A DNA stretch of 34,855 bases from Bacillota bacterium (lineage in GTDB: Bacteria; Bacillota; Sulfobacillia; JAJZYS01; JAJYTV01). The notes under the pieces were generated by a model. The model had not been told where the DNA came from. It saw only the letters and a program-made list of their open reading frames with translations, and searched no databases. This document shows positions 2 to 20,225 of the stretch, piece after piece. The stretch lies in assembly GCA_021847575.1 (NCBI GenBank), contig JAJZQO010000023.1, positions 1-34,855 on the forward strand, given 5' to 3'. A program made the position numbers and the translations under genes. How positions within the stretch are numbered: the first letter of the stretch is position 1; each line of letters opens with the position of its first letter.

Positions 2-91
2 GCATTCTTCCAGTGGGCCCGCTCCGAGCGCCGGCCGGAGCTGCGGGTCGTACGGCCTGCGCCCTTGGCTGAGCACCAGGCGGTCCACTGA
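2..91 (+). CDS. C-terminal end of a gene entering from the left (unidentified)
   Basis: Frame 2 of the plus strand is open from the window edge for 29 codons and stops at TGA 89-91. The residues (beginning AFFQWARSERRPELRVV) have a composition like real coding DNA in this window. A hairpin that could be its terminator follows at 127-169. Only the tail is visible, so no function can be given. The other frames also stay open for a short way, so this is a modest-confidence call based on the stop codon being followed by a terminator. Confidence 0.4.
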   Translation, partial: AFFQWARSERRPELRVVRPAPLAEHQAVH

Positions 92-169: not shown

Positions 170-292
170 TCATCTTGCCGGAGTCCGGCAGGTTGAGGGA
201 GCTTCCCGCGATACAGGCCTACGCTTCCCTGGCGGATAGCAAAGTCCGGCCGGGAGCCTGGCCGCGGTAGCGGTGGTCGAAGACCGAGCGGC

Positions 293-1474
293 CTACCCTG
301 CCAGGAACTCGAGGGCGATAGCCGCGAGAGCCGCCGCGCCGAGGGGCAGTGCGCCCTCCTCGATGTCGAAGCGCGGATGATGATGCGGGAAAACGATGCC
401 ATTTGCCTCGTTTCGGCTGCCGAGCCAGAAGAAGCAGCCGGGGGCCACCTGCTGGTACGCTGAGAAGTCCTCTCCCACCATGGACGGCTCGGTCTGCGTC
501 ACCGCGTTCTCGCCAAGCAGGTTCGCGACGGCGGTCCGAACCCTTTGCGTGGTTGCCGGATCGTTGACGACGGGGAGGTAGCCCTTTTCGTAGTCCACGC
601 GAGCGTCGGCCCCGTGCGCGTGCGCGATGCCCTGCACGGTGCGCTCCATGAGCTCGGCAACGAGCTTCTGGACCGACACGTCTTGCGTGCGCACCGTGCC
701 CACGATGGTGGCTTCGTTCGGCAGGACATTGTCGGCCGTGCCGGCATGTATTTGCGTCACGCTGAGTACGACAGGCCGGAGCGGATCGATGTTGCGCGAG
801 ACGATCTGCTGCAGGGCGAGTACGATCTCCGCGACGACAGGGATCGGATCGATCGTGAGATGGGGCTGCGCCGCATGCCCGCCGCGTCCGGTGACCGTGA
901 TGGTGAAAGAGTCCGGCGCCGCGGTCACGGGCCCTGCCGCGATACCCACCTTGCCGGCCTCGAGCGGCGCCCAGAGGTGCTGGCCGACGAAGAAGTCCAC
1001 GTCGTCGAGCAGGTGGAGTCCGACGAGCTCCTGTGCGCCACCGGGCGAAAGCTCCTCCGCATGCTGGAAGATGAAGCGCACTTCCCCGTGCAGCAGGTGC
1101 CGCATCTCGGCAAGCAGCTTCGCCGCCCCCAGCAGCATCGCCGTGTGTCCGTCATGGCCGCAGGCATGCATCACGCCGGGACGTTCGGACGCGAATGGTA
1201 GGCCTGTCTCCTCGGTGACGGGCAACGCGTCCATGTCCGCCCGGAGCCCGAGGCACGGTCCCGGCAGATCGCCTCGCAACCGGCCGAGGACACTGGTCGG
1301 AGTTGGCCTGGAGACCTCGACGCCTTCCAGGGTGCCAAGGATCTCCGCCACAAACTGCGCGGTCTCGATCTCTTGAAAGGAGAGTTCGGGGTGCCGGTGC
1401 AGGTGGCGGCGCCACGCCACCACCTGAGAGGCTTCGGCCATGGCTCGCTCAAGCAGGTCGACCTGTTCGTCCAT
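293..1474 (-). CDS. M20 family amidohydrolase (N-acyl-amino-acid / aminoacylase type)
   Basis: A 393-residue metal-dependent hydrolase of the M20D group, which cleaves amide bonds of N-acylated amino acids or related conjugates in the cytoplasm. Visible motifs are GLRADMDALP (about 76-85), HACGHDGH (103-110), QHAEE (137-141), GQHLWAP near 165, the dimerisation-domain motif GRGGHAAQPH and the C-terminal PHHHPRF. Together they give the usual Cys, His, Glu, His and His metal ligands. The family normally has QPAEE where QHAEE is seen. I chose the ATG at 1474 because GGAAAGGAAA lies about 8 bases upstream; an in-frame start at 1519 lacks such a site. It is the last gene of an operon with a peptide-type ABC importer and an epimerase, which suggests it processes an imported acylated or peptide-like substrate. 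The exact substrate cannot be read from sequence. Confidence 0.93.
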   Translation of the reverse strand: MDEQVDLLERAMAEASQVVAWRRHLHRHPELSFQEIETAQFVAEILGTLEGVEVSRPTPTSVLGRLRGDLPGPCLGLRADMDALPVTEETGLPFASERPGVMHACGHDGHTAMLLGAAKLLAEMRHLLHGEVRFIFQHAEELSPGGAQELVGLHLLDDVDFFVGQHLWAPLEAGKVGIAAGPVTAAPDSFTITVTGRGGHAAQPHLTIDPIPVVAEIVLALQQIVSRNIDPLRPVVLSVTQIHAGTADNVLPNEATIVGTVRTQDVSVQKLVAELMERTVQGIAHAHGADARVDYEKGYLPVVNDPATTQRVRTAVANLLGENAVTQTEPSMVGEDFSAYQQVAPGCFFWLGSRNEANGIVFPHHHPRFDIEEGALPLGAAALAAIALEFLAG

Positions 1475-1519
1475 GTGGCAGTTTCCTTTCCTTCCGATCT
1501 CCCTACCGCTCTGACGCAA

Positions 1520-2383
1520 CTAGCCAGCCAAGCTGCGACGCTGTGGGGCAAAGACGTCGGCAAGGGCTTCGCCAAGCTCGTTGAACGCGATGACGACGAG
1601 GGTGATCGCTACCCCCGGCGCCAGGGAGAGCCAGGGAGCCTGCAGCACGTACGTCTGGGCGGCCGACAGCATGCCGCCCCAGTCCGGCAGGGGCGGCTGC
1701 GCGCCCAACCCCAGGAAGCTCAGGGTGGCCTCCGCGAGGATCGCATCAGCCACGCCGACGCTGGCCAGGACGACGATCTGGCCCAGCACGTTGGGCAGGA
1801 TGTGTCGCAGCGCGATGCGCCACTGGGATGCACCTACGGCGACGGCGGCCTCGACGAAGTTGCGCCCGCGCAGTTCCAGCGTGCTGCTGCGCACGACCCG
1901 TGCGTACTGGGGCCAGAAGCCGAAGGCGATCGCGACGATCGCGCTCTCGACCCCAGGGCGCAGGATGGCGACCAGTCCGATTGCCAGAAGGATGATCGGG
2001 AACGACCAGATCACGTCGGCCACGGCGGAGATCAGCGTGTCCACGACGCCGCCGAACAGTCCCGCAACAATGCCGAGGAGGCCGCCGAAAGCGGCACCGG
2101 CCAGAACGGCGATGAAGCCCACCTCGAGGGATACCTGCGCGCCCCATACGATGCGGGCCAGTTCGTTGCGTCCGAACTCGTCCGTGCCGAGTGGGTTGCC
2201 GGAGGACGGCGGCATGAGGGAACTCATCAGGTTTTGCTGATTGTATCCGTGCGCGAAGAGCAAGGGAGCCAGCAGGGCCAGAGCGACAAAGAGCGCGACG
2301 AAGGCGAGGGCCAGGAGCAACCTCAACCTGCGGCGCCACCAGCCTGTCCGGACCTTCTCGGCTTGCTGTGCGTGTTGCAGCAA
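1520..2383 (-). CDS. Peptide-type ABC transporter permease, DppC/OppC family
   Basis: A 287-residue inner-membrane permease of the peptide/nickel importer family. An N-terminal basic stretch and first membrane segment (LLLALAFVALFVALALLAPLL) precede the extracytoplasmic loop typical of DppC. This is followed by about five more membrane helices. The EAA loop that contacts the ATPase is clear (EAAVAVGASQWRIALRHILP). The start is TTG at 2383 with AGGGGAG eight bases upstream. It lies 19 bases after the DppB-like gene and 45 bases before the M20 hydrolase, all on one strand. No ATPase genes for this importer are in the operon, so it must borrow ATP-binding subunits encoded elsewhere. Confidence 0.93.
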   Translation of the reverse strand: MLQHAQQAEKVRTGWWRRRLRLLLALAFVALFVALALLAPLLFAHGYNQQNLMSSLMPPSSGNPLGTDEFGRNELARIVWGAQVSLEVGFIAVLAGAAFGGLLGIVAGLFGGVVDTLISAVADVIWSFPIILLAIGLVAILRPGVESAIVAIAFGFWPQYARVVRSSTLELRGRNFVEAAVAVGASQWRIALRHILPNVLGQIVVLASVGVADAILAEATLSFLGLGAQPPLPDWGGMLSAAQTYVLQAPWLSLAPGVAITLVVIAFNELGEALADVFAPQRRSLAG

Positions 2384-2402
2384 TGCACTACTCCCCTAAT
2401 GG

Positions 2403-3323
2403 CTACTGGTAACGGATGGATGGATTGACCCAACCATAAGCGAGGTCCGCAATGAAGTTTGCAAGCAGCACCGATATGCCGAGGACCAGCATGGTTCCCT
2501 GCACGACGGTATAGTCGGAGTTCAGGATCGCTTGGACCATCAACTGGCCCATGCCGGGCAGCAGGAACACGAGCTCGAGCACGACCGATCCGGCGATGAT
2601 GTAGCCGACGCGCAGGCCGAGCAGCGCGATGATGGGTATCACGGCGTTGCGGAAGGCGTGCCGCCACACGGTGCCGGAGGACGAGACGCCCTTCGCCCGC
2701 GCCGTTCGCACATAGTCGTTGGCCAGTACCTCCGCGATCTGGTTGCGCATCATGCGCGCGAAGATGGCGAGCCCGTTGATGCCGAGCGCAAGCCAGGGCA
2801 GGATCATCTGTCGGAACGAGCCCCAGCCTGCGCTGGGCAGCCAGCCCAGCCTGACAGAGAACGCGAGCACGAGAAGGATGCCTAGCCAGAAGAGCGGCAC
2901 CGAGACGGTGACGCTCGTGATCAGGACGATCAGGCGGTCCAGAAAGGAACCGGTCCGCCTTCCGGCCGCGACGCCGAGCGGGATCCCGAGCAGGAGCGCG
3001 AGAACCGTTCCCCCTCCGCCGATGGTGAGGGTCACCGGCAGGGCGGACGCGATCAGGGACGCGACGGGCCTTTGCTCCATCATCGAGTAGCCGAGGTTCC
3101 CGTGGAAGAGCTGCAGGAGGAACCTGACGTACTGCTCGGGCAATGGGAGATTCAGGCCCCATTCGCGCGTGATCGCGGCGATCAGCGACGGCGTGGGGTG
3201 CAGTCCAGCCAGGAGCAGGGCAGGATTGCCCGGCGCCAGGTGGACGATCAGGAACGCTCCCAGGGATACGGCGAACAACTCGGGCAGGAGCACGAGTACG
3301 CGGCGGAAGGCGAACCCAGCCAT
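2403..3323 (-). CDS. Peptide-type ABC transporter permease, DppB/OppB family
   Basis: A 306-residue permease, partner of the DppC-like protein. It has the standard DppB layout: an N-terminal helix (about 8-30, ending in VHLAPGNPA), a periplasmic-side loop, then five helices. The coupling loop reads YVRTARAKGVSSSGTVWRHA, matching the family EAA region. The ATG at 3323 lies 10 bases after the stop of the substrate-binding protein gene, with AGGG upstream, so translation is probably coupled. Length and topology are normal for the family. It forms the membrane channel of an importer for peptides or peptide-like compounds; substrate choice is set by the binding protein. Confidence 0.93.
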   Translation of the reverse strand: MAGFAFRRVLVLLPELFAVSLGAFLIVHLAPGNPALLLAGLHPTPSLIAAITREWGLNLPLPEQYVRFLLQLFHGNLGYSMMEQRPVASLIASALPVTLTIGGGGTVLALLLGIPLGVAAGRRTGSFLDRLIVLITSVTVSVPLFWLGILLVLAFSVRLGWLPSAGWGSFRQMILPWLALGINGLAIFARMMRNQIAEVLANDYVRTARAKGVSSSGTVWRHAFRNAVIPIIALLGLRVGYIIAGSVVLELVFLLPGMGQLMVQAILNSDYTVVQGTMLVLGISVLLANFIADLAYGWVNPSIRYQ

Positions 3324-3333
3324 GTTATCGACC

Positions 3334-4920
3334 CTACTTGCTCTGACTCACCCAGACGTCGTTCAGAACGATGTCGGTCGGGTGGATGCGGTAGCCGTGC
3401 ACCAAGGCCGTGTTGACGGCCTGCAGCTGGTCAGGGTAGTAGATCGGCGCCCAGACGGCCTTGCCGACCAGGTAGTGCGCGAGCTGGTCCCAGCGCTGGA
3501 CGTAGGCGTTCCAGCTCGGCGCGGCGTATGCGGCGTTGATCATCCGGTCGGTGGCGGCGTCCTTCCACATGAAGTAGTTGGGGTAGGGCATCTGGTTCGA
3601 CTGCAGGAACCACTGCAGGATGTTCGGGTCCCACCATTCGTAGTGGTAGACGAAGAGCTGCTGCTTGCCCGACTTGAGGTAGGCGACCCAGCGCGCCGTC
3701 GAGAAGGTCTCGATCCGCGTGTGGATGCCGATCTTGGCCAGCATCGGCTGCACTGCCTCGGCGACCTGCGTGAGGTTCGTGTCGTTGCTGGTCGCGAGCG
3801 TGTAGGTGCCTGGCAGTCCGTGCGGGTAACCGGCCTTGGTCAGGAGCTGGCGGGCTTCCGTCACGTTGTAGGACATGGCCTTCTTGTCCTGGAAGTAGCC
3901 AGGCGTCGTGGGCGGGAAGTAGCCATAGGCGGGCGTGGCCATTCCGGCGAACAGCGCCTTGACGATCCCCACACGGTCGATCGCGTGGTTGATCGCCTGG
4001 CGTACGAGGACGTTGTTGAACGGCTTCGCCTCGGTGTTGAAGCCGAGGAAACCGAGGTTGTCGCCGGGCGCCGTGAGCACCTTGATGTTGGGGAAGCGGG
4101 CCGCCACCTTGGCGTCCGCCGCCGGCAGGTCTACGAGAATGCCGATTCCGCCAGTCTGCAGCTGCGTCAGGCGGGTGGCGTCATCCGGGATGATCTTCAC
4201 GATTACCTTGCTCACGTACGCCGGGCCGTGGTTCGAGAGGTAGGGAGGAGCGCTGTTGAAGCCTGCGTAGCGCTGGAACACGTACTCCTCGTGCGGAACC
4301 CACTGGACGAGCTTGAACGGTCCGGTGCCCACCGCCACCTGCGTGCCATAGGTGTTGTTGCCCATCGGCCCGTACTTGAGGTAGGCGGTCGGGCTCTGCA
4401 GCCCACCGTAGGTGTTCGCCATGTCGAACAGGATGTCCGGGAAGGGCGCCTTGAGGACAAAGGTGACGGTGTAGGGATTGGGCGTGAGGATCTTGTTCGG
4501 ATCGATGAAGTTGTAGGAGGCCGCGTCGGCGAAGTGGTACTTCGGGTTCAGCATGATCTGGAAGTCCTGTTTCACCGCATAGCTGTTGAACGGGGTGCCG
4601 TCCTGGAACTTCACGCCCTTGCGCAGGTGGAATGTCCACTCGAGCCCGTTCTTCGACTCGCTCCAGCTGGTGGCCAGAGCGGGCTGGAACTGGAACTTGA
4701 AGTTGTGCGTCAGCAGGGACTGGTAGTTGAGTTCAAGCCCCTCGGACCAAATCGTCTGGTTGACATCGAAGCTGTTGGTCTCCTGGGAGATGCCGACCGT
4801 CAGCGTGCCACCACGCTGAGGACCGCTGGCTGCGGACGCTGTCGTCGCCCCGGCAGCCAGAGCCGCCAGCATCGCCGCGGACACCAGCCCGCCGATAATG
4901 CGGGCCTTGTTCAGGGCCAA
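3334..4920 (-). CDS. Extracellular solute-binding protein, family 5 (peptide/opine type)
   Basis: A 528-residue SBP_bac_5 protein that captures the importer's substrate outside the membrane. A signal peptide covers about residues 1-31 (basic start, then LVSAAMLAALAAGATTASA), with no lipobox cysteine. The mature protein begins RGGTLTVGISQETNSFD, and family features such as EWTFHLRKGVKFQDGTPF and RQAINHAIDR are present. The start is TTG at 4920 with GGGGGA six bases upstream; no ATG fits. It precedes the two permeases with a 10-base gap and follows the epimerase gene by 43 bases. How the signal-peptide form stays at the surface is not clear; the uncleaved helix may anchor it. Confidence 0.92.
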   Translation of the reverse strand: MALNKARIIGGLVSAAMLAALAAGATTASAASGPQRGGTLTVGISQETNSFDVNQTIWSEGLELNYQSLLTHNFKFQFQPALATSWSESKNGLEWTFHLRKGVKFQDGTPFNSYAVKQDFQIMLNPKYHFADAASYNFIDPNKILTPNPYTVTFVLKAPFPDILFDMANTYGGLQSPTAYLKYGPMGNNTYGTQVAVGTGPFKLVQWVPHEEYVFQRYAGFNSAPPYLSNHGPAYVSKVIVKIIPDDATRLTQLQTGGIGILVDLPAADAKVAARFPNIKVLTAPGDNLGFLGFNTEAKPFNNVLVRQAINHAIDRVGIVKALFAGMATPAYGYFPPTTPGYFQDKKAMSYNVTEARQLLTKAGYPHGLPGTYTLATSNDTNLTQVAEAVQPMLAKIGIHTRIETFSTARWVAYLKSGKQQLFVYHYEWWDPNILQWFLQSNQMPYPNYFMWKDAATDRMINAAYAAPSWNAYVQRWDQLAHYLVGKAVWAPIYYPDQLQAVNTALVHGYRIHPTDIVLNDVWVSQSK

Positions 4921-4963
4921 GATGTTCCCCCGCTTTCCTCCGACATAGTTTGAAGCCGCCGGG

Positions 4964-6082
4964 TTATGCCAACTCGCCTACGGACACCCGCCTTCTGACC
5001 AGCGACGGGAAATCCGCGGCAAGACCAACCCCGAGTCCAGGAGTCTCCGAGACGCGGAACAGCGGGGCTCGGATCGGTGAGTCCACGCCGTCCTTGGCAA
5101 AGAGCAAGGGGCCTGATGTTTCGAGGGACACCACCTCCGGACGTGCAGCGGCGATATGGGCTCCAGCCATGCTGGCGATGCCGGACTCGACCATCGAGCC
5201 GATCTGGACCTGAAGCCCCGCGCTCCCCGCGATGTGGATGAGCTGAAGCGCCGGCGACATGCCGCCGCACTTCATGAGCTTCACGTTGATCAGATCCGCG
5301 GCCCGCAGGCGGATGATGGACATGAGGTCGTGGGCGTCGTGCAAGGCCTCGTCCGCCATGATCGGCACGCCGACCCTTGCCCGCACCTCGGCCAGACCCG
5401 CGATATCCCATTGGCTGACGGGCTGTTCGATCCAGACCGGCTCGAACCGTTCCAAAGCGCGGATGCGCCGTACGGCCTCCGACGGTGTGCCCCAACCCTG
5501 GTTGGCGTCGATCTTGAGCGGGATTGCCGGACCCACCGCGGAACGGATGGCCCCTACGCGCGCCACCTCGTCGGCGACGCTGCCCTGGCCCAGCTTGAGC
5601 TTGAGACCACGGTATCCGCCCGCCACGGCGTCCGCCGCGCTCTCGGCCATCTCCTGCGGCGCGCCGAGGCTGACGACATGGTAGAGCTCGAGCTGTTCGG
5701 TGGTCTTGCCGCCATAGAGGCGATAGGCGGGAATCCCGTAGGCCTTTCCGATCAGGTCGTTGAGAGCGATCTCGAGCGTTGCAACCGCGGTGGGCACACC
5801 GCGGACGCGGCGGCGGAAGGCCTGCAGGGCAGGTTCGATGTCTCTCGGGTCCGCACCCAGGAGTGCGGGACCGAGTTCGCCCAGGAGAACCGCCAATGTC
5901 CCCTCGGGCGTTTCGCCGGTCACCTCGGGGTCGGGCACACCTTCGCCGAGGCCTTCGAGGCCGTTGTCCGTCACCACCCGGGCAACGATGGACGGCATCC
6001 TGTCCCACTGCGCGTAGGCGATGCGAAAGGGGGTCTTGAGCGGGAACTCGCAAAGCATGAACTCGACGCCGACTACTTTCAT
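4964..6082 (-). CDS. Enolase-superfamily dipeptide epimerase (L-Ala-D/L-Glu epimerase-like)
   Basis: A 372-residue member of the muconate-lactonising subgroup of the enolase superfamily. From the ATG at 6082 the catalytic residues fall at Lys161 and Lys163 (LKLKLGQ), Asp192 (IDANQGW), Glu219 (EQPV), Asp244 (ADEALHD) and Lys268 (INVKLMKCGG). These numbers are almost the same as in characterised L-Ala-D/L-Glu epimerases, which also supports this start over the ATG at 6106. A GGGAGG site lies 11 bases before 6082 and nothing useful lies before 6106. The enzyme would invert a stereocentre of a dipeptide or acyl-amino acid in the cytoplasm. Being first in an operon with a peptide importer and an amidohydrolase fits catabolism of unusual or D-containing peptides, perhaps from cell wall. 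N-succinylamino-acid racemase is the main alternative. Confidence 0.88.
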   Translation of the reverse strand: MKVVGVEFMLCEFPLKTPFRIAYAQWDRMPSIVARVVTDNGLEGLGEGVPDPEVTGETPEGTLAVLLGELGPALLGADPRDIEPALQAFRRRVRGVPTAVATLEIALNDLIGKAYGIPAYRLYGGKTTEQLELYHVVSLGAPQEMAESAADAVAGGYRGLKLKLGQGSVADEVARVGAIRSAVGPAIPLKIDANQGWGTPSEAVRRIRALERFEPVWIEQPVSQWDIAGLAEVRARVGVPIMADEALHDAHDLMSIIRLRAADLINVKLMKCGGMSPALQLIHIAGSAGLQVQIGSMVESGIASMAGAHIAAARPEVVSLETSGPLLFAKDGVDSPIRAPLFRVSETPGLGVGLAADFPSLVRRRVSVGELA

Positions 6083-6152
6083 GAAAACCGAGTCCTCCCT
6101 TGGCATCGGGGCGGCGTAACCGAACGGTGGTATTAACGGACAGCGATTCGTC

Positions 6153-6205
6153 TGTATGATGAATAATCCTTCTCTGCGTCAAAGCGTGAAAGGAAAGTTT
6201 CTTTT
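6153..6205 (-). promoter_or_regulatory. Candidate promoter and RpiR-type operator of the peptide operon
   Basis: On the minus strand TTGACG (6182-6177) is followed after 18 bases by a weak -10, CATACA (6158-6153). Just upstream is an imperfect dyad centred on 6197, AAAGGAAA-G-TTTCTTTT (6189-6205, one mismatch) with the perfect core GAAAGTTTC. RpiR-family sites often contain GAAA/TTTC arms, so this may bind the regulator encoded at 6423-7379. The rest of the 340-base gap (6206-6422) holds a 6-bp hairpin, CGCGGG/CCCGCG, near 6250-6270, possibly ending the regulator transcript, and no convincing gene. Confidence 0.35.
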
Positions 6206-6422
6206 GGCTGGTTTTCCAGCGTCTCTCAGGCGGGTGGAGGTCAGGCGGGCCCGCGGGACATTAGCCCGCGTGCGGCTTCCGTGCCCGATGGCGAGGGCCT
6301 CCGGTCGGGGGAGAAAGGCCCTGGGGCCGGCGTGTTGCAGGCGTCAGGGTCTTTCTGGTCCGGGTGATGGAGTGGGGTTGCGAATCCCTGCAGGCGTCGC
6401 ACCCGGACGACCGCTGGAGGGT

Positions 6423-7379
6423 CTATGAGTCTCGATCACCTTTGGGTGGCGGTCGGCGGTCCCGAGGCCCGCTCCGACCGCCGGCGGCCGGGCGACCTGT
6501 TCCGTGTGGCGGCTTGGCCGCGTGCATGTTCAGGAACTTCGCTCCACGCCAGATCTCATCCGCTTCGTCCACGTTGCCCAGCACCGGATCGGGCGCCAGG
6601 TCGGCCAACAGCTCCGTCAGGATCTCGACGAGCGCGACAAGGGAGGCCTTGGAACCGAAGGAGCCGTGCGAAGTGACCGGCAGCCGCACCAGGCGACCTA
6701 TGTCCTCGCTGTCGCGCGGGCCGATCTCGTCGGTGAGCAGCCAGACGCCACGGACCTTGTTCTTGACCGCGCGGAGCAGCTTCAATGTCGCCTCGGCGTA
6801 GCGGGGAAAGCAGATACCCACGACGACGTCGTCCGGCTGGGCGTCCCGCACGAAAAGCCACGCCTCGCCCGTCGCGGGATCGAAGTGCCGCACCTTGCCC
6901 AGCAGAATGTTCAGTTCCGTCGCCGCGTGGGCCGCAAAAGGGGCCGACGTGATGCTGCCGAGGAACACGCTGGTCCTGCTGGCCGCCAGATCTCGGGCCA
7001 GGTCTTGCATGTCCTGGCCGGCGAGCTGCTCCAGCCTGCCCAGGTTTTCGACCTCTTGCTGAATGACCCGCCCGACCACCGATGCCTGCGCCGTAACCGG
7101 GGCATGGTCGCGGGTAAGCTCCCAGACGAGCTCGCTGGCCGGCAGGCCCTGCTGGACGGTCCGCCTGAATCCGTTGTAGCCGTCGAAGCCGACCTGCTGC
7201 AGGCAACGCACGACGGACGCCGGACTCACGCGCGCCGCAGCGGCGATCTCGTCGACGGTCCGCCAGGCAACCTCGGGCAGGTGCTCGGCGAGCCACAAGG
7301 CGGTGTGGGCGAGGGATGGCGAGAGTCCTGGCGCCTTGCCGCGCAACAGGCGCTCCAGGGACGGCCACTGCTCAGACAT
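6423..7379 (-). CDS. MurR/RpiR family transcriptional regulator (HTH + SIS)
   Basis: About 318 residues. The N-terminal RpiR helix-turn-helix is seen at about 40-75 (TVDEIAAAARVSPASVVRC, then LQQVGFDGYNGF). The C-terminal half is a SIS sugar-isomerase fold that usually senses a phosphosugar or other small ligand (near TSVFLGSITSAPFAAHAATE, then DVVVGICFPRYAEATLKLLR and KNKVRGVWLLTDE). The C-terminal tail of about 40 residues is Pro/Gly/Arg-rich and unlike the family. I chose the ATG at 7379 because homology starts there; it has no strong ribosome binding site, so a nearby non-ATG start is possible. It sits directly upstream of the peptide operon on the same strand and probably controls it. 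Confidence 0.85.
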   Translation of the reverse strand: MSEQWPSLERLLRGKAPGLSPSLAHTALWLAEHLPEVAWRTVDEIAAAARVSPASVVRCLQQVGFDGYNGFRRTVQQGLPASELVWELTRDHAPVTAQASVVGRVIQQEVENLGRLEQLAGQDMQDLARDLAASRTSVFLGSITSAPFAAHAATELNILLGKVRHFDPATGEAWLFVRDAQPDDVVVGICFPRYAEATLKLLRAVKNKVRGVWLLTDEIGPRDSEDIGRLVRLPVTSHGSFGSKASLVALVEILTELLADLAPDPVLGNVDEADEIWRGAKFLNMHAAKPPHGTGRPAAGGRSGPRDRRPPPKGDRDS

Positions 7380-7633
7380 GGCTCGCGGCAATTGGCGGCC
7401 GGTGTGGGGGACGTGGCAGAAGACCCTTGCGACCAGATAGGTGCCACCCTGCAGGCAACGCAAACACTCCTCACCCGTCAGGGTGTGCCGACATCGTAGG
7501 GCGCCAGCCTTCGCAGGTTGACGTGCGGAACTTCTGCGCGCGGCAGCGAACTCCTGTCCTGCGCCGAGCCCGCCCACGCCTGGGGCAGCTGGAGTCCCGT
7601 CGATGCTCCTTCCAGGCGCTCGAGTTCCGGGAG

Positions 7634-7814
7634 CCGGGACCACAGCCTGCCGAGGCCGTAGAAGACGGCCGTGACGGCGGCGACTCAGAACCCGACCGGT
7701 ATGCCGGTGTCGTACGCGAAGACCAGCGAGAACCAGACGCTGAGGAGGCCGATGACCACTCCAATGCCCAGCGCCTTGGCGGGGCCGCGGCCGAACTAGC
7801 TGCCCGCCGCCGCG
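7634..7814 (-). pseudogene. Fragment of a metal ABC permease gene (3' end copy)
   Basis: On the minus strand these 181 bases align without gaps to 10391-10211, the C-terminal part of the intact metal permease gene, with about 13 mismatches (near 93% identity). Read in the permease frame it gives GIGVVIGLLSVWFSLVFAYD, then TGIPVGF, then a TGA stop where the intact gene has TTC, then AAVTAVFYGLGRLWSRL. The first two-thirds or more of the gene is missing. It is therefore a truncated, stopped remnant. Downstream of the match the sequence (about 7500-7633) stays open but does not resemble the intact gene's tail. Confidence 0.88.
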
Positions 7815-7845
7815 CCTGCACCCGCTGCTCCATGCCATCCATGTC

Positions 7846-7874
7846 CGCTCACGGCTTTCGTGAAGCCGTGAGCG
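7846..7874. terminator. Perfect 12-bp hairpin beside the permease fragment
   Basis: CGCTCACGGCTT (7846-7857) and AAGCCGTGAGCG (7863-7874) pair perfectly around a 5-base loop. There is no T-run on either strand. It lies between the permease fragment and the island genes and could be a terminator or a REP-like element. Confidence 0.5.
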
Positions 7875-8189
7875 TTACGCAATAGGCAGGGGACGATGCC
7901 GCCGGGAATACGTCGCCAGGAACAGAGTTCGCGGTTGAGCCAGGTCCAGTGCAAGAGCTAAGCCCGCGCCAGCGGGTGACATCCGTGCGCAACGGTATAT
8001 CACCTGTATGGGTGATGGCCTTTCACTAATGCAAGGTGTCGAATGGATTATACGGGAGCTGGCCGGAGCGTACATTCGTGGCTACATGGCAGGGGCCGCA
8101 TGGGCCATCTGGGGGTGGGGAGCAAGCATCTTCGCGTCACGCGCGGCCGGGATCTCAGGCATGTCAGAGGTGCAAAGGGAGGCCGGGAC
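7875..8189. other. Non-coding stretch upstream of the island membrane gene
   Basis: No gene is supported here. A small dyad, ATCACC-(6)-GGTGAT, lies around 7997-8014 next to TATAT and may be an operator or part of a promoter for the gene at 8190. An open frame with an ATG at 8043 runs into that gene, but its first 49 codons read as poor, Arg/His/Gly-rich protein and lack a ribosome binding site. Confidence 0.4.
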
Positions 8190-9185
8190 TTGGACGAGGC
8201 AGTGCAGCCGCGAGGCTGGCTCGGGGCATCTGCTTGCTTTCTGGCATCGCTAGCGCTGAGCGAGTTTGCCTTTATCGGTTTCATTGTCGTGGCAGCAATC
8301 GGTGTCGTGACGTTCCTCGTCCTATCCCGCTTCGGTGGCCGACCGTCCTCCAGCCCCGGGGTTGCGCGGACGACGGAGATGGTTCTTAGCGGCTTTACCG
8401 TCCTTGCGGCGCTTGTTTATGCCTTCCACTCCGGTGAGATTGTCGAGGGTGCCGTGGTGCTGCTTTGGGCGATCGTCTACGGGGCGTGGGCGTTGCGCAC
8501 ACTCGCGCCCGGGGTGTTGATCCGCCTTGCAGGCGAGCAGAGGACAGCGGTCGTGCCGCTGCTTGCCGCCGTCCTGAGTGCCGCCCTAGCATTTCTCATG
8601 GGCGGAGTCTCGCTCGCCTACATCCTGTGGCTCGCGGGCGTTGTTTCGCTCGTCCTGGCGCTTCGCCCCGGGGATTTGCCCCATGCTCTCGACCCGAGAA
8701 GACTCTGGCAGACAGGGGCTGCGCGCCTTGCGACCATCGGGGCGGCCGTCGCGGGTGCCAGTCTTGGTCTAAACTGGGCCACCTGGGTCGACTTCAACCC
8801 TGGCGTCTACGATCCGTACGCGAACTGCGACCCTACAACCGGATTCTGCATGGGGGACATCGTGGGAGGCAGCTACTACTCAGGCAGCCTGAGCGGGCAC
8901 AGTCACGGCCTTGACCTTCTGCCTATGGTGCTTCTTACAGGTGCCCTCGTCTGGCTCGCCAGCGAACGCTCTGAAACACCGCAGCTCGGTGGCTGGCGGT
9001 GGCTGCCGACGGCAGCGCTGGTGGTGCTGCTCCTTTACGCGATCTGGAACAACTTCGCCAGCGAGCTCGGTCCAAAGGTATTTGCCGTTGCGCTCGTATT
9101 GATGGCGCTTGGGATGTATCGGCGGCAACGTCTGACGGCGGGCTCGACCGACGGGCAAAGTCTCGACACCGAGGGGGGCCGGTGA
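8190..9185 (+). CDS. Multi-spanning membrane protein, family not recognised
   Basis: About 331 residues with roughly eight to nine hydrophobic segments (for example FIGFIVVAAIGVVTFLVL, LLAAVLSAALAFLMGG, LPMVLLTGALVWLA, FAVALVLMALGMY). Between two helices is a polar loop of about 45 residues with two cysteines (ANCDPTTGFCMGD) followed by GSLSGHSHGLD, probably exposed outside the membrane and perhaps disulphide- or metal-linked. I chose TTG at 8190 because AAAGGGAGG lies seven bases upstream; the ATG at 8043 would add 49 unlikely residues. It lies in the island between the two permease repeats, and a secreted-protein gene follows on the same strand. I do not recognise the family, and no function is assigned. 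Confidence 0.75.
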   Translation: MDEAVQPRGWLGASACFLASLALSEFAFIGFIVVAAIGVVTFLVLSRFGGRPSSSPGVARTTEMVLSGFTVLAALVYAFHSGEIVEGAVVLLWAIVYGAWALRTLAPGVLIRLAGEQRTAVVPLLAAVLSAALAFLMGGVSLAYILWLAGVVSLVLALRPGDLPHALDPRRLWQTGAARLATIGAAVAGASLGLNWATWVDFNPGVYDPYANCDPTTGFCMGDIVGGSYYSGSLSGHSHGLDLLPMVLLTGALVWLASERSETPQLGGWRWLPTAALVVLLLYAIWNNFASELGPKVFAVALVLMALGMYRRQRLTAGSTDGQSLDTEGGR

Positions 9186-9277
9186 ACCGACAACTCCGGC
9201 TGCCGGGCCGGTGGCGGCGGCGACAGGAACCCGTGGCGGTTTGTCCTATTGGAACGATGCGAAACGGGGGGGCTCGG

Positions 9278-9778
9278 ATGGTTTCGACGCTTGCATGGCC
9301 TGCGTACTTTTGCAAGTCTCTCGTCTCAACTGCTCTGGTAGCGACCGTGCTGATGGCCGGTACGCCAGGGATGGCGTCAGCGGCGCCGCGTAGTGTCGTC
9401 GTGACCGCAGCCGTGTTTCCGGCGGAATCTTGCCAAGAGGGATCCGCGCAGAACACCCCTGGGGCCACCATTACCTGCAAAGGCGTCAATGACTTGTGGC
9501 TGACAGCGACAAAGGCGTACGCGATCTCTTTCGGGGGTTATGTGAACTCCACGGGTAAGGCAACGGGCGACCTGCAGTTCAAGGAGTGGTCGCCGTATGC
9601 GCACAAGCCGATTTACCAGCACGACTTCGGGCAGCAGCACCTGACAACCAACGGAGAGTGGTTCCGTGTGAGCGCCTCAGGGGTTCGCAACAAGCCTCGA
9701 GATTACTGGGCAGGCCTATACTTCAACGGCAAGGTGATCGGCTGGACCCCGGTCAACTGTATATCTCCCACGAAGTAG
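9278..9778 (+). CDS. Small secreted protein, family not recognised
   Basis: About 166 residues. A signal peptide covers roughly 1-36 (LVSTALVATVLMAGTPGMASA before APRSV). The mature part of about 130 residues has three cysteines (SCQEG, ITCKG, NCISP) and many aromatic, strand-like stretches (GEWFRVSASGV, YWAGLYFNGKVIGWTP), as in a small beta-rich extracellular domain. The run of G at 9266-9272 precedes ATG 9278; ATG 9257 is an alternative start. It follows the island membrane protein by 92 bases on the same strand, so the two may be co-expressed. No known family is recognised. Confidence 0.72.
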   Translation: MVSTLAWPAYFCKSLVSTALVATVLMAGTPGMASAAPRSVVVTAAVFPAESCQEGSAQNTPGATITCKGVNDLWLTATKAYAISFGGYVNSTGKATGDLQFKEWSPYAHKPIYQHDFGQQHLTTNGEWFRVSASGVRNKPRDYWAGLYFNGKVIGWTPVNCISPTK

Positions 9779-10171
9779 GGCTGCAACATCACCCTGGCGT
9801 CGCGTACGGGCGGACGCATAGCAAAGGTGCGGCGGGAGCGGCACTGCCCGACGTCGCGTGACAACAAACCCGCGAACGCTCCGCGCATTCGCCGCGCCAG
9901 GCCCGACACTTCCCCCACTTCCTCAGCCGCACCCTTTACCGTATCGCGGGCCCGCGCAAATCCTGCTGCGGGCTCGCTGCACGTTGGAGTCTCAGCCCAT
10001 CTGTCAGCAATCATTGGCATCTTGCAGCCTTCCCGAATTTGGTCGGCGGCTCTGGGCTGCCTATGCCATGGCTTTCAGCGAAAGCTCTAAGTCCCGCAGG
10101 TAAGCCGACTACCAGCCCGCGCGACGCAGTGCCATGGCGGCGATGGTGGGTCGCCTGTTTGATCGCGCGAG
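9779..10171. other. 393-base gap without a convincing gene
   Basis: Open frames exist on both strands (for example 9827-10090 plus and 9703-10020 minus), but none has a ribosome binding site or recognisable protein features, and they overlap each other. I see no strong hairpin or repeat. It may be decayed sequence belonging to the right side of the island. Confidence 0.4.
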
Positions 10172-11020
10172 TCAGGGGGATACCCGTGCCGCGTTTTCCC
10201 CCTCTGAGAGCCTGGACCACAGCCTGCCGAGACCGTAGAAGACGGCCGTGACGGCGGCGACGAAGAACCCGACCGGCATGCCGGTGTCGTACGCGAAGAC
10301 CAGCGACAACCAGACGCTGAGCAGGCCGATGACCACTCCAATGCCCAGCGACTGAGCGGGCCCGCGGCCGAAGTAGCTACCCGCCGCCGCGGGACCCACC
10401 ATGAGGCTGAAGCTGAGAAGCGCCCCCACCACCGGCACTGCGGCCGTCGCCGCGAGGGCCACGAGGAGCAGGAAGAGGATGTCCATGCGGCGGCGCGGGA
10501 CACCCTTCGCTTCGGCGACATCCGGCGCGACGGAAGCGTAGAGCAGTGGCCTGTAGAGGATCGCGGTCGCGAGCAGGGCGAGCGCGAGCAGCAGCAGGAT
10601 GCCGACCACGTCTGGGCGGCTGATCCCGACGATCTGACCGAAAAGCAGGGCGTAGACCTCCGGTGCGTAGGCGTTGCCGAGCGACAGGAAGAGCGCCCCC
10701 AGCCCGAGCGCCGCCGTCAGCACGAGCGCCGTCGTCTGGCTCTCGTGCCGGCGCGATGAGAGCGATGCGATGCCGAGGGCGCTCAGGCCGGAGAAGACGG
10801 CCAGGCCGACGAGCGTGTCGCCCCCCGCCAGTACGGCTCCCGCCGCGCCCGCGAAGCTGGCGCGCGGGATGGCGTGCGCCGCGAACGACGCGCCGCGCAG
10901 CACGACGAAGAACCCCACCGACGCCGAGAGAACCGCCACGGCGCTGCCGGCGATCCAGGCGTTGACCATGAAGTCTGCTGTGAAGAGGCCTGACGGAAAC
11001 AGCACGTGGAGGAGATGCAT
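10172..11020 (-). CDS. Metal ABC transporter permease (ABC-3 / ZnuB-MntB family), second copy
   Basis: A 282-residue permease with about eight membrane helices and the ABC-3 family pattern (FFVVLRGASFAAHAIPRASFAG, VGALLSFSLMVGPAAAG). The ATG at 11020 overlaps the stop of the first permease gene by one base (TGATG), so the two are translated together. It likely pairs with the first permease to form the membrane channel for zinc, manganese or iron. Its 3' end (10211-10391) is the source or sister of the broken copy at 7634-7814. The last dozen residues (SEGENAARVSP) are not shared with that copy. Confidence 0.93.
   Translation of the reverse strand: MHLLHVLFPSGLFTADFMVNAWIAGSAVAVLSASVGFFVVLRGASFAAHAIPRASFAGAAGAVLAGGDTLVGLAVFSGLSALGIASLSSRRHESQTTALVLTAALGLGALFLSLGNAYAPEVYALLFGQIVGISRPDVVGILLLLALALLATAILYRPLLYASVAPDVAEAKGVPRRRMDILFLLLVALAATAAVPVVGALLSFSLMVGPAAAGSYFGRGPAQSLGIGVVIGLLSVWLSLVFAYDTGMPVGFFVAAVTAVFYGLGRLWSRLSEGENAARVSP
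10211..10391. repeat. Direct repeat, right copy (partner at 7634-7814)
   Basis: This 181-base segment matches 7634-7814 in the same orientation at a constant offset of 2577 bases, with no gaps and about 13 substitutions. It lies wholly inside the intact permease gene. Together the two copies bracket the two island genes. Confidence 0.9.
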
Positions 11021-11889
11021 CAGGGCACCTGCCTTGTCGCGGGCTCTTGACGGGTTCGCCGGCCGATGCGCGAGAGCAGGTATTCGAGCAGGACGATCAT
11101 GACGATGAAGAAGCTGACCGGCCAGCCGCGGTCGAGCGGCGGCCAGGCGTAGCTCTGGTAGGCGAGGGCGACGCCGAGCACGACGGCCAGAAGGCCGAGC
11201 AGCACCGAGAGCGCAACCGCCTCGCCGACATGACGCGTCCAGCGGACGGCGGCGGAGGCTGGCCCGATCAGGAGCGCCGTGCTGAGGAGGGCACCCGCCA
11301 CCAGCGCGGACTCCTCGACGGCAACGGCGATGGCCAGCATGAACAGGAGGCTCACCGCGGTGGTGGGCACGCCGGCCGCCCGCGCGACCTGCGGGTTCAC
11401 GGTGGTGAAGACGAGCGGGCGGTAGAGCACGGCGAGCAGCAGCAGGACGAGCACGGAGAAGAGCGCGACAGGGCCTGTCACGCCGGGGTCCACGGTGAAG
11501 ATCGAGCCGAACAGGATCGCCACCGGCCCGCTGCCCGGGTTCGGCCGTTGCGTCATGAAATAGAGCAGGAGGGCGCCGATGCCCAGCATCAGCGAGAGGA
11601 CGATGCCTGTCGCGACGTCGCGTTCGCGTGCACGTTCGCCCAGGGTTTCGATGCCGAGGCCTCCCAGCACGCCGACGCCGATGAAGCCGTAGAGGGGCGA
11701 GATGCCGCCGAGGTAGGCAGCGGCGGCACCGGTGGTGCCGATGTCGCCGAGCGCGTGGCCGGAGAAGCTCTGGCCCCGCAGTACGACGAAGACGCCGACC
11801 GCCCCGGATGTCGCGGCGACGAGGCTGCCGATGACGAGAGCCGTGCGGGTCGCGCCCAGGGTCAGGAGACTCGCGATGAAGGCGGCCAT
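11020..11889 (-). CDS. Metal ABC transporter permease (ABC-3 / ZnuB-MntB family), first copy
   Basis: A 289-residue inner-membrane permease with about eight helices. Family signatures are visible near the N-terminus (VFVVLRGQSFSGHALGDIG) and in the C-terminal half (VAGALLSTALLIGPASAA). It starts 10 bases after the ATPase gene and ends overlapping the second permease by one base. Two different permeases suggest a heterodimeric channel rather than the homodimer of E. coli ZnuB. The metal is not shown by the permeases themselves. Confidence 0.93.
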   Translation of the reverse strand: MAAFIASLLTLGATRTALVIGSLVAATSGAVGVFVVLRGQSFSGHALGDIGTTGAAAAYLGGISPLYGFIGVGVLGGLGIETLGERARERDVATGIVLSLMLGIGALLLYFMTQRPNPGSGPVAILFGSIFTVDPGVTGPVALFSVLVLLLLAVLYRPLVFTTVNPQVARAAGVPTTAVSLLFMLAIAVAVEESALVAGALLSTALLIGPASAAVRWTRHVGEAVALSVLLGLLAVVLGVALAYQSYAWPPLDRGWPVSFFIVMIVLLEYLLSRIGRRTRQEPATRQVP

Positions 11890-11899
11890 GGCATCTCTC

Positions 11900-12727
11900 C
11901 TAGGCGTCGCAGGTGGTGCAGGTCAGGGCCTCCACGTCCGGGCCGCCTACGACGAGGATGCGGCCGTGCACCCGCACGACGTCGATGTGGTGGCCGTAGA
12001 GCTGGCCGAGGACGTCCTGGCGCACCACCTCGTCGACCGTGCCGAGGGCCGCCTGGCCGCGGGCCAGGTAGAGGATACGATCCATGACGCCCAGGATGGG
12101 ATTCATGTCGTGGGTCACGAGGAGGACGGTGACGCCGCGCTCGTGCGCCACCCTGCCGACGAGCGCAACCACTTCGTCCTGGCTGCGCAGATCCAGGTTC
12201 GCGAGCGGCTCGTCGAGCAGTACGACGCGCGGCTCCGAGATGAGGGCGTGCGCCACGAGGAGCCGTTGCAGCTCGCCGCCCGAGAGGCGGCCGACGGGCT
12301 GGTCGGCGTAGCTGGACGCGCCGACCCAGTTCAGGGCCTCGTCAACTTTGGCCCGCCGGTTCCTGCCGCCGAGCGAGAAGCCCCAGCGGGCGCCGTCGAG
12401 ACCGAGCGCCACGAGGTCCCGGGCCGTAAGGGGCAGGTCCGGGTCGGGCGTGTAGCTCTGCGGCACATAGCCGACCAGACTGCGCGACGCCTGCGCGTCG
12501 TGCCCGCCGATGCGTACCTTTCCCTGGTCGGGCCTGAGCAGGCCCAGGATGATCTTGAGCAGGGTCGTCTTGCCGGCCCCGTTCGGTCCGATCACGCCGA
12601 CGAGCTCACCGGGACGCAGGCTCAGGTCGATGCCCTGCAGCACCGGCCTGCCGCCGAGACTCACGCGAACGCCCGCGAGCTCCAGCACGGGTTGTGCCTG
12701 GCCCGCCACCGGCTGAAGGTTCCTCAT
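11900..12727 (-). CDS. Metal ABC transporter ATP-binding protein (ZnuC/MntA-type)
   Basis: A 275-residue ATPase that powers metal import. Walker A is GPNGAGKTT (47-55), the Q-loop is in GYVPQSYTPDPDLPLT, the signature is LSGGELQRL, Walker B is VVLLDEPLANLDL and the H-loop is LLVTHDMN. The last residues, CTTCDA, form a CxxC pair that could bind metal; this is not a standard feature of the family. Its ATG overlaps the stop of the binding-protein gene by four bases (ATGA), and the first permease follows after 10 bases, so the operon is tightly coupled. Confidence 0.95.
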   Translation of the reverse strand: MRNLQPVAGQAQPVLELAGVRVSLGGRPVLQGIDLSLRPGELVGVIGPNGAGKTTLLKIILGLLRPDQGKVRIGGHDAQASRSLVGYVPQSYTPDPDLPLTARDLVALGLDGARWGFSLGGRNRRAKVDEALNWVGASSYADQPVGRLSGGELQRLLVAHALISEPRVVLLDEPLANLDLRSQDEVVALVGRVAHERGVTVLLVTHDMNPILGVMDRILYLARGQAALGTVDEVVRQDVLGQLYGHHIDVVRVHGRILVVGGPDVEALTCTTCDA

Positions 12728-13665
12728 GGTGCCAGCACCTCCGACTTGTGTTTCGTGATCGCGGCGTCGAGTGCGGTCGTCTCGGCGAGCATCCAGCGCT
12801 GGTAGTCGTAGCCGCGCGGCATCGTTTCGTAGACGCCGACCACCGGAACGCCGTGCTGGCGGGCCAGCTTCAGCATGGACGCGGTGGTCGGCTCCACCGC
12901 CTGGAAGTTGTAGACGAGAGCCGAGACCTGGCGGTGGGTGATGAGAGACTCAACGTGCGTGACGTCCTGCGGCGACGGATCCTCGCCGTTCATCACCGCG
13001 AGCTCGAAGGTCCAGGGCGTCGCGATGTGGAGGTCGCCCGCCTTCAGGAGATAGTCTGCGACAGGTTCCATCGGCGCCACCCACGCGCCCGCGGCAGTGG
13101 CCCTGAGGCGTGCGACAGCCTGGCGCCACGGCGCGAGGGAGCGGTCGAAGGCGGCGAGGCGCTGCCTGAAGTAGTCCTTGTGGCTCGGCTCGAGCTTCGC
13201 GAGCGCCTGGGCGATGCGACCCGCGACGGCCTGCATCGTTCCGGGGCGGTACCAGAGGTGCGGGTTTGGCGTGCCCTGCGGCGTCCGAACGATCTGCGCG
13301 GCGGTCAGGACGATGCGTCCCGGGCTCGGCGAGGCGGCCTCGAGGCTCTGCATGAAGCTGTCGTAGCCGAGGCCGTTCTGCACGATCAGCGCCGCCTTCG
13401 CCACTTCCTCCGCGTCGACGGTGCTCGCCTCGAAGGTGTGCGGGTCGGTGTTCGGGTTCACCATGATGCCGACGGCCTGGACGTAAGGCCCCCCGATCTG
13501 CGCAAGCACGTTCGCGTACTCGTTTTCGGCGCCGACCACGAGCAGGGCCCGCCCCTGCGCGGGCCCCTGCGCAGCGGGCTGACCGAAGACGAAGACGAAC
13601 GCCACGGCCAGCCCGGCCAGCAGTACGACGAGGCCGCCTACGATGATCAGGCGCCGCAATCTCAT
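12724..13665 (-). CDS. Metal-binding protein of the ABC transporter (cluster A-I, ZnuA/MntC-like)
   Basis: A 313-residue extracytoplasmic metal-binding protein held by an N-terminal helix (about 5-28) with no lipobox cysteine. Likely ligands are His76 (NTDPHTFE), His136 (NPHLWYRP), Glu200 (APMEPVADYL, where zinc proteins usually have His) and an acidic residue near the C-terminus (VGVYETMP). A His, His, Glu, acidic set is known from Mn/Fe-binding members such as PsaA, so Mn or Fe is at least as likely as Zn. There is no His-rich loop of the kind common in zinc binders. I chose ATG 13665 because it overlaps the Fur-family gene stop (ATGA) and begins the membrane anchor; the longer open frame upstream lies inside that gene. 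Confidence 0.87.
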   Translation of the reverse strand: MRLRRLIIVGGLVVLLAGLAVAFVFVFGQPAAQGPAQGRALLVVGAENEYANVLAQIGGPYVQAVGIMVNPNTDPHTFEASTVDAEEVAKAALIVQNGLGYDSFMQSLEAASPSPGRIVLTAAQIVRTPQGTPNPHLWYRPGTMQAVAGRIAQALAKLEPSHKDYFRQRLAAFDRSLAPWRQAVARLRATAAGAWVAPMEPVADYLLKAGDLHIATPWTFELAVMNGEDPSPQDVTHVESLITHRQVSALVYNFQAVEPTTASMLKLARQHGVPVVGVYETMPRGYDYQRWMLAETTALDAAITKHKSEVLAP

Positions 13666-14150
13666 AGCGGCGGCACATCCTTGCCGCGGCCGGATGCGCC
13701 CCGGCAGGCCGGGCAGACGCCGAACGCCTGCAGAACGTGATTTTCCATACTGTAGCCGACGCGCTCCACCGCACGTGCCACCGCACCGTCGTCTTCCAGG
13801 CTGAAGACCTCGGTGCGACCGCACACGCGGCACGTCACATGGTGGTGATGGCCCGCGGTGAGGCAGAGCGTGTAGACCTCCGCGTCGGGAGCGTGCAGGC
13901 GCTCGACCAGCCCGCAGGTGCGCAAGAGCTGCAGGACCCGAAACACGGACGCCCTGCCGATGCCCGGGTCTGCCTTGGCGACTTCCGCCGTAAGCTCGCT
14001 CGGGGTGAACGGATGGCCGAGCGATGCGACCACCTGCAGGATCGTGCGTCTCGGGAGCGTGTGGCGAAAGCCCTGCCGGGCCAGGGCGCTCTCCATCAGA
14101 TCGAGCGGGTTGCTGCGCTCCGGCTCACCCGTCACCTCATCACCACCCAT
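13662..14150 (-). CDS. Fur-family metal-responsive repressor (Zur/Mur/PerR-like)
   Basis: A 162-residue Fur-family protein. The winged helix lies at about 20-85 (RHTLPRRTILQVVASLGHPF, IGRASVFRVLQLLRTCGLVE). The dimerisation domain carries the GHHHHVTCRVCG metal site and a second pair, CPAC, so the structural zinc site CxxC...CxxC is complete. It is the first gene of the metal-uptake operon, and its stop overlaps the binding-protein start. A perfect palindrome lies 12 bases before its ATG, over the promoter, pointing to autoregulation and control of the whole operon by metal. Sequence alone cannot separate Zur, Mur, PerR and Fur types; the tail GRGKDVPPL is unremarkable. Confidence 0.93.
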   Translation of the reverse strand: MGGDEVTGEPERSNPLDLMESALARQGFRHTLPRRTILQVVASLGHPFTPSELTAEVAKADPGIGRASVFRVLQLLRTCGLVERLHAPDAEVYTLCLTAGHHHHVTCRVCGRTEVFSLEDDGAVARAVERVGYSMENHVLQAFGVCPACRGASGRGKDVPPL

Positions 14151-14161
14151 AAATGAGACCG

Positions 14162-14204
14162 AGTATCATGATGATACTATGTATCAGACGACACACCACG
14201 TCAA
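14162..14204 (-). promoter_or_regulatory. Promoter with overlapping Fur-family box for the metal operon
   Basis: On the minus strand -35 TTGACG (14204-14199), a 17-base spacer and -10 CATAGT (14181-14176) precede the regulator gene. The perfect inverted repeat AGTATCAT-G-ATGATACT (14162-14178) overlaps the -10 and the probable start point. Its inner 7-1-7 form, GTATCAT-G-ATGATAC, is the usual layout of Fur, Zur and PerR boxes. Binding here would block RNA polymerase when the metal is plentiful. Confidence 0.75.
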
Positions 14205-18218: not shown

Positions 18219-20225
18219 CTAAAAGAGACTCTGCGGCGGTATCAGCGCGGCGTGCAGGCGCCACGTCCAGATGGCGAAGGCGCCGCGTGACACAGAGGCA
18301 TTCGGGCGGAAGGTGCCATCCGGATAACCCAGGACGACGCCGTCCTGCGCTGCGGCATCCACGTAGCCCTGGAACGCGGCGGGGATGGACCCCGCGTCCT
18401 TGAACGTGGAGGTACCCGACGCGGCTGCGAGACCGAAGGCCCTCAGGAGCCAGGCGGCCAGCTGGGCCCTTGTCGCAGGGCTCGAGGCGGCGAAGCCGTC
18501 GCCCGGTTGGACGACTCCTTGCGCGTATGCCCATGCGGACGCCGGCTCTGCCCACAAGGGCACGCCTGCGATCGCAGGGGCGCCCGAGGTGCCGGGCGAC
18601 CCTATGGCGCGGTAGAGCATGGTGATGGCCTGCGCCCCGGTGACCAGGGCGTCCGGCCGGAAGGTGCCATCCGGGTAGCCCTGGACGAGTCCAGCCACCT
18701 GGTCGGCGTCCACGTAGTACTGGCTCGAACTGGACGTCCCAGCGTCGCGGAAAGGCGCCCGGGACAGGCGGTAGGTGCCCACCGCCTTGCCTGTCGACCC
18801 GTCCGTTACCTCGACGCGCGTCAGAGAGCCGCTGGCTGGTGCCGCGATCAGGTGGCTTCCCTGGTAGGAGGGATTGCCGAGGTTGGCCTGGCTGCCGTTG
18901 TACCAGTATGAAGAAACGTAGGACTCGCCCAGGTTCTGGCCCTCGACGTACAGCGTGCCGCCGTCCATGTAGGCGCCTGTGACCACTGGTGCCGAACCGG
19001 TCGTGAAGGACCACGTCTGCTGGAAGGGCTGCGTGGAGCCGTCCGAGAGCGTGATGGTGCCGGCCATGCTTGCGGTGTAGGACGTATCGTACTGCAGAGG
19101 CTGGTGCGGGAAGAGGGCTATCGAGGTTCCCATCGACTCGCCCGGGTAGGTCGGGTTCGCGTCCTGGTAGGTGGCGTTGTCGACGAGGTAGGTCGGCACT
19201 TCGGTCGCACCCCGGCTCAGGGTTGCCTGGGAGACCTCAACCGACTGCACTTGTCCGGGGTCGAAGGTGAGGCTGACCGGGTAGCCGGACTCGGGCGACG
19301 ACTGGGTCTGCGCGGCTGGGGCGATGCCCGCGAGGGGGTCGGGGTCTTCACCGAGGAAGGCGACGGGCACGCCGGTCTCGCCGTTCCACGGGAATTGCCA
19401 CGACACGGTGGTCGCGGGGTCGAAGCCTGTGTCCATATCCATGACGTAGGCGGCCTGTCCGAATGCGTCGCTCGTCGGACTCTGGGCCAGGCCCGCGCCC
19501 AGGGCGGTCATCGTCGGGTCGAGCAGCCCAAAGCGGTGGAACGTGGTGTCGAAAAGGCCCAGCAGGCTGTAGGGACCGCTCGCCTCGCCCGTCACCATCA
19601 CCTCGTTGCCGCCGGCGACGGCCGAATACGCCGCATCCCGGTCCTGCGGCCAGAGGCCAGTGTAGCCCTTGGCCAAGGAGTTCGGCTCCGTATGCATGCT
19701 GACGTTCGCCGGGAAGAGGCTCTGGTTTTGCACGAAGTACTGTGCGTGCGCTTGGCTGGCCGCCTGCAGTGCGGCGTCGTAGCCGACCGTGGACAGCTGC
19801 AGCTGATGGCGCACGTAGTCGAGGACGCGTTGCCCTTCGAGGCTTGCGAGGTTCTCGGACGGCAGGGAGGCCGCGGCGCCTGGGGCCACGGAGAACTGCA
19901 GATTCTCCACAAGCGGGTTGGAGCCGGGGGACGCGACGTTGATCGTCGCCGTGTAGCTGCCGGCGGCGAGAGGGGTCGGCCACGGATAGACGCAGCCCTG
20001 CTGCTGCTGGTCGTAGGGCATGGCGATGACCTGGCCCTGGAACTGCAAGGTGCAGGCGAGACTCGAGCCGGGGTCCGGCTGGGCCTGCAGCGAGAAGATC
20101 GGTGTGGCGACAAGCAGCGTCACGCCGTTCGGGCTCGGGTCGTAGTAGCTGAATGCGGCCCTTGCGCTCGCGATGGGCATCAGGGCGACGATCAGCAGCG
20201 TCAGGAGCGGCAAGGTGCGTCGCAT
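18219..20225 (-). CDS. Secreted CAP-domain protein with three C-terminal SLH domains
   Basis: 668 residues. The signal peptide is about 1-24 (LPLLTLLIVALMPIASARA). A beta-rich N-terminal region is followed by a CAP/SCP-like domain (about 125-265: LASLEGQRVLDYVRHQLQLS, AHAQYFVQNQ, MHTEPNS, FHRFGLLDP). Ig-like regions come next, including a Big_5-like segment ending QTWSFTTGSAPV. Three SLH repeats end the protein (FRDAG, GYPDGTFRPDA; LWAEPASAWAY; FKDAG, GYPDGTFRPNA). SLH domains bind the pyruvylated secondary polymer of the cell wall, so the protein is displayed at the surface. Bacterial CAP proteins have no settled activity. ATG 20225 has GGGAGG upstream and begins the signal peptide; the frame runs longer, but that part is not protein-like. 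Confidence 0.9.
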   Translation of the reverse strand: MRRTLPLLTLLIVALMPIASARAAFSYYDPSPNGVTLLVATPIFSLQAQPDPGSSLACTLQFQGQVIAMPYDQQQQGCVYPWPTPLAAGSYTATINVASPGSNPLVENLQFSVAPGAAASLPSENLASLEGQRVLDYVRHQLQLSTVGYDAALQAASQAHAQYFVQNQSLFPANVSMHTEPNSLAKGYTGLWPQDRDAAYSAVAGGNEVMVTGEASGPYSLLGLFDTTFHRFGLLDPTMTALGAGLAQSPTSDAFGQAAYVMDMDTGFDPATTVSWQFPWNGETGVPVAFLGEDPDPLAGIAPAAQTQSSPESGYPVSLTFDPGQVQSVEVSQATLSRGATEVPTYLVDNATYQDANPTYPGESMGTSIALFPHQPLQYDTSYTASMAGTITLSDGSTQPFQQTWSFTTGSAPVVTGAYMDGGTLYVEGQNLGESYVSSYWYNGSQANLGNPSYQGSHLIAAPASGSLTRVEVTDGSTGKAVGTYRLSRAPFRDAGTSSSSQYYVDADQVAGLVQGYPDGTFRPDALVTGAQAITMLYRAIGSPGTSGAPAIAGVPLWAEPASAWAYAQGVVQPGDGFAASSPATRAQLAAWLLRAFGLAAASGTSTFKDAGSIPAAFQGYVDAAAQDGVVLGYPDGTFRPNASVSRGAFAIWTWRLHAALIPPQSLF

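Follow-up and report, generated by a model that had tools for sequence, protein, structure and literature searches.

A decayed permease gene end within a probable strain-specific insertion between ZnuB2 and CtaG of a Sulfobacillia bacterium

Gene organization of the locus

The window, i.e. the whole stretch of 34,855 nucleotides analyzed, stems from contig JAJZQO010000023.1 of a draft assembly. The following features were assigned at the locus and beside it.

2..91, plus strand: C-terminus of CtaG (cytochrome oxidase assembly type), truncated where the contig ends and sharing 57-76% identity with CtaG from four congeners over 21-30 aa
121..172: strong terminator-like hairpin next to CtaG (-34.8 kcal/mol when 115-180 is folded)
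293..7379, minus strand: peptide-uptake operon with M20 amidohydrolase, DppC-like and DppB-like proteins, family 5 solute-binding protein, enolase-superfamily enzyme and RpiR-type regulator (Pfam, NCBIfam)
7626..7814, minus strand: decayed relic of a permease 3' end with two stops, with weak similarity to congeners reaching on to 7616 (repeat alignment, translated comparison)
7847..7873: perfect palindrome, present once in the genome, that lies between the relic and ORF1
8043..9185, plus strand: ORF1, predicted polytopic membrane protein (open reading frame, hydropathy); the true start may lie further in, e.g. at 8202
9278..9778, plus strand: ORF2, predicted secreted protein of 166 aa (signal-peptide-like start)
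10172..11020, minus strand: intact ABC-3 family metal permease of 282 aa ("ZnuB2"), with the right repeat copy (10203-10391) at its 3' end
11020..14150, minus strand: remaining metal-uptake block with second permease, ATPase, ZnuA-type binding protein and Fur-family regulator (profile matches, DNA similarity to relatives)

Within its first 91 bases, the window encodes AFFQWARSERRPELRVVRPAPLAEHQAVH* (asterisk, stop codon), matching the C-terminus of a protein which we take to be CtaG from reading its sequence rather than from a profile search. The contig starts inside this gene, and its remainder was absent from the rest of the assembly (137 contigs; genome rated 99.4% complete). From left to right follow the hairpin, the peptide-uptake operon, the permease relic and the pair of ORF1 and ORF2, before ZnuB2 is reached. 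The ZnuB2 protein shared 79-80% identity with its counterparts from four congeners and 75% with that from a different genus of the same family, and DNA similarity to relatives at 72-78% spanned 10207-14187, from ZnuB2 to the Fur-family gene. Further to the right, two long minus-strand proteins (18219-20423 and 23835-25133) carry candidate S-layer-homology-type repeats, as judged by the look of their sequences.

The direct repeat and the permease relic

An ungapped direct repeat of 189 bp connects 7626-7814 with 10203-10391 at an offset of 2577, with 15 differences (92% identity). A DNA search of the genome (2.86 Mb, 137 contigs) found only these two copies, the second one with an E-value of 2.4e-74. 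The original prediction had described the repeat slightly shorter (7634-7814 and 10211-10391, about 13 substitutions in 181 ungapped positions), with the same offset, and had placed the right copy inside an intact metal ABC permease gene, in agreement with the Pfam assignment (ABC-3, E = 4.3e-40). It had also noted that both intervening genes lie opposite in strand to their neighbors. Indeed, the two ORFs are on the plus strand, the permease operon and the RpiR-type gene on the minus strand.

Translated in the permease frame, the left copy reads S*FGRGPAKALGIGVVIGLLSVWFSLVFAYDTGIPVGF*VAAVTAVFYGLGRLWSRLPELER. It is 85% identical to permease residues 210-276 and interrupted by one TAG (changed base 7796) and one TGA (changed bases 7685-7686), while the comparison of the repeat surroundings found nothing of the permease 5' part beside it. 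With its in-frame homology, its disabling changes and neither start nor 5' part, the left copy is a decayed pseudogene fragment of a permease gene. The earlier description as a fragment with an in-frame TGA thus holds, but was one stop short, as the TAG had been missed. No function is expected for this stub, and the permease itself is still intact.

The two copies were 92% identical to each other versus about 75% to the congeners, and hence group as sisters to the exclusion of every congener. Consequently, they split either in this lineage or between this lineage and a close unsampled relative. As had been proposed before, the event is not recent, given the 8% divergence of the copies. Where the congeners gave a direction, both stop codons were changes in the left copy alone, and two other sites had changed in the right copy alone. 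Ten of the 15 differences fell on third codon positions. This bias would fit two once-functional alleles and equally one constrained plus one neutral copy, and does not decide between them.

Past 10203, toward the permease stop, identity between the copies dropped abruptly from the 92% of the block to 14/31, a weak similarity that is nevertheless kept (shuffle p = 0.04). For comparison, the pair of congeners G002 and G005 showed 0.92 in the block and 0.86 in the tail. At the level of residues, the left tail (PELER) is more similar to the congeners (WEIER or WQIER) than the right tail (SEGEN). Our first reading of the right tail as foreign sequence replacing the ancestral one was dropped, with the stop codon of the right copy at the congener position, 14-15 residues past GRLW, and the weak similarity kept. 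Either replacement or fast divergence of the right tail may account for the alignment.

The slot between ZnuB2 and CtaG in related genomes

ZnuB2 and CtaG were found as convergent neighbors in G001, G002, G003 and G005. In G001 and G003, the two are separated by about 50-80 bp with a terminator-like palindrome, whereas G002 and G005 have a gap of about 730-790 bp with a small lipoprotein-like gene (L024 9852-10643 and L026 2632-3363). In our genome the same slot comprises about 10.08 kb (about 92-10171). As the CtaG C-terminus at 2-91 adjoins ZnuB2 in the congeners, the whole of this stretch is extra DNA in one slot. The sample compared is small, as the slot was resolved in five genomes, of which this is one. 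Inspection of related genomes, suggested in the original prediction, found five (G001, G002, G003, G005 and G006) with a single permease end and without the island. The limits given there for the island were however too narrow, since the extra DNA runs from the permease end to CtaG and the part between the repeats makes up about 1/4 of the total.

Among the operon genes, the RpiR-type and the enolase-superfamily gene were those sought in the congeners. The former gave no match there and the latter only distant relatives in the genus (about 28%). The ORF1 and ORF2 proteins and the DNA of the two-gene segment were likewise not found in the congeners. Thus, the flanking genes are adjacent in relatives, and the four inserted genes searched for have no close match there. 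Because the congeners agree on CtaG adjoining ZnuB2, a gain in this genome is simpler than a loss in the congeners. Genome comparison therefore gives good support to an insertion specific to this strain, in a variable slot where the convergent genes ZnuB2 and CtaG meet.

The orphan genes ORF1 and ORF2

Across 154 class genomes and 398 sampled from the phylum, ORF1 had a single relative, a partial gene in G013 with 37% identity. It lies at a contig start (L078 1-2623) and is followed by two genes which, from reading their translations, we take to encode a Fur-family-like regulator and a NicO-like metal transporter. For ORF2, no credible relative was found among class genomes, plasmids and PDB sequences; weak matches in the class (E 0.003-0.1) were short, nearly all with internal stops, and were discarded. 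Viral contigs, plasmids, phages (the latter at the DNA level), Pfam, NCBIfam and PHROGs yielded nothing useful for either gene, and the structure models were too poor for searching (mean pLDDT of 43 for ORF1 and 41 for ORF2). The palindrome at 7847-7873 was considered as an element end and dropped, as it occurs only once in the genome and in none of ten relatives.

GC3 was 0.72 in both ORFs versus 0.81-0.91 in neighboring genes. Compared to equal-sized pieces of 10392-34855, the two-gene segment was a mild outlier in tetranucleotide distance (0.302 versus 0.161-0.276) and in GC content (0.631 versus a minimum of 0.637). This composition supports a separate origin of the two-gene segment.

Origin of the inserted DNA

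The layout is known from one contig of a 137-contig draft assembly. The original prediction had explained it by duplication with decay of one copy, or by insertion of a cassette. The gain of DNA absent from relatives and the decay of one copy were supported; the decayed full second metal operon, also considered there, was not. We suggest that the slot is a tolerant insertion site, which in this lineage would have taken in the peptide-uptake operon as well as a short segment with the two orphan genes, in one step or in two. The left stub would then be a duplicate permease 3' end, left behind when recombination imported the two-gene segment. In its likeliest form this would have been a single-crossover-like integration of short DNA from a close relative, in which a permease 3' end adjoined the two genes. 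One such event would yield a permease, then the two genes, then a further permease end, and the two ends would differ from the outset as alleles of donor and host. Lacking a 5' part, the extra copy would have been free to decay and acquired its two stops. We regard this additive integration as an evenly poised call. Its donor and crossover are what we infer from the arrangement, and more than one mechanism and order of events would agree with it; the peptide operon may have arrived before, with or after the two genes. None of the genomes searched had a 92%-identical permease next to ORF1 and ORF2, as expected of a donor. Moreover, the last 31 bp of the permease, with 14/31 worse than the congener tails, are poorly explained by simple allelic exchange.

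A tandem duplication of the permease region, in which most of the second copy was lost and the two genes and peptide operon took its place, would make the stub a remainder. The sister relationship of the copies is what a local duplication predicts. However, more steps are required, and neither remains of a second gene set nor a relative with two adjacent intact sets was found: the only sequences of this kind in the genome are ZnuB1, ZnuB2 and the fragment, left of which lies the peptide-uptake operon, and none of the relatives examined has such a pair. We consider this course of events possible, though rather doubtful. Less probable still is an insertion at a double-strand break that cut the permease end in a staggered way, where fill-in of the overhangs would have duplicated about 190-220 bp on either side of the new DNA and all of the 8% divergence would have come later. 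It would give the layout in a single event, and the stop-making changes of the left copy are as expected of unconstrained decay, but an overhang of about 190 bp would be a long one and the abrupt drop of similarity at 10203 is left unexplained. Both duplication readings could produce the same layout as additive integration, with more steps or less precedent. We hold it for quite improbable that the stub and its neighbors were wrongly joined in the assembly. This is a draft of 137 contigs whose contig ends inside a CtaG gene that was not found further. On the other hand, CtaG and ZnuB2, neighbors in the congeners, flank the slot, each oriented as expected, so that the contig is coherent as a whole, and copies that differ at 15 sites are not one sequence assembled twice.

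An intact gene on one side and a displaced 3' fragment on the other, with a left tail closer to that of the congeners, are what a site-specific genomic island would leave if it had entered the permease 3' end and supplied a replacement end, the left copy being the displaced original. A direct repeat is present as a candidate att pair, but with 189 bp at 92% identity it is long and diverged, and the same insertion was found in no other genome searched. Neither the genes of 293-9778 nor ten frames scanned in the gaps around ORF1 and ORF2 encode an integrase, recombinase or transposase, which makes an integrase-driven island very unlikely. As for a transposon or IS element, there was no transposase and no inverted-repeat pair at the segment borders. 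The least credence of all is given to a small integrase-less element that would enter ZnuB-type 3' ends, supply a new gene end and carry a membrane protein as well as a secreted one, both with a link to metal uptake; this link was drawn because the only relative of ORF1 lies near the Fur-like and NicO-like genes.

Taken together, the locus is a case of ordinary genome remodelling, a variable slot with a recombination scar. It provides a small, clear example of gene content changing at a convergent-gene junction, where a decayed stub records an old join. It also calls for caution: the repeat alone pointed to an island of 2.6 kb, and only the comparison with congeners revealed the gain of about 10 kb. 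No new mechanistic question is raised unless further genomes carry the same stub.

Comparison with known systems

By its Pfam match, the right copy fully belongs to the ABC-3 (ZnuB type) metal permeases, whereas the left copy preserves, as a relic, some 60-odd final codons interrupted by two stops. With variable insertion slots known as hotspots of gene gain, the locus shares conserved flanks and contents that change between relatives, from a gap of about 50-80 bp through a small lipoprotein-like gene to about 10 kb; it differs in the small sample of five genomes and in that no mobility gene was found. Genomic islands at gene 3' ends typically show a short identical att core. Our locus resembles them in the intact gene and the displaced 3' fragment at the two borders, but has no integrase, and its repeat is no such core. 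Closest to the proposed integration are two bacterial precedents. Incoming linear DNA was described to circularize and to integrate by a single crossover (PMC3240628), and additive insertion of a cassette in strain R3022 gave rise to a tandem duplication of 3.3 kb that had no flanking repeats (PMC3784515). The event proposed here would differ from these cases in being inferred and old (8% divergence), with one copy being a decayed gene end, and would resemble them in that new DNA lies between direct copies of host sequence.
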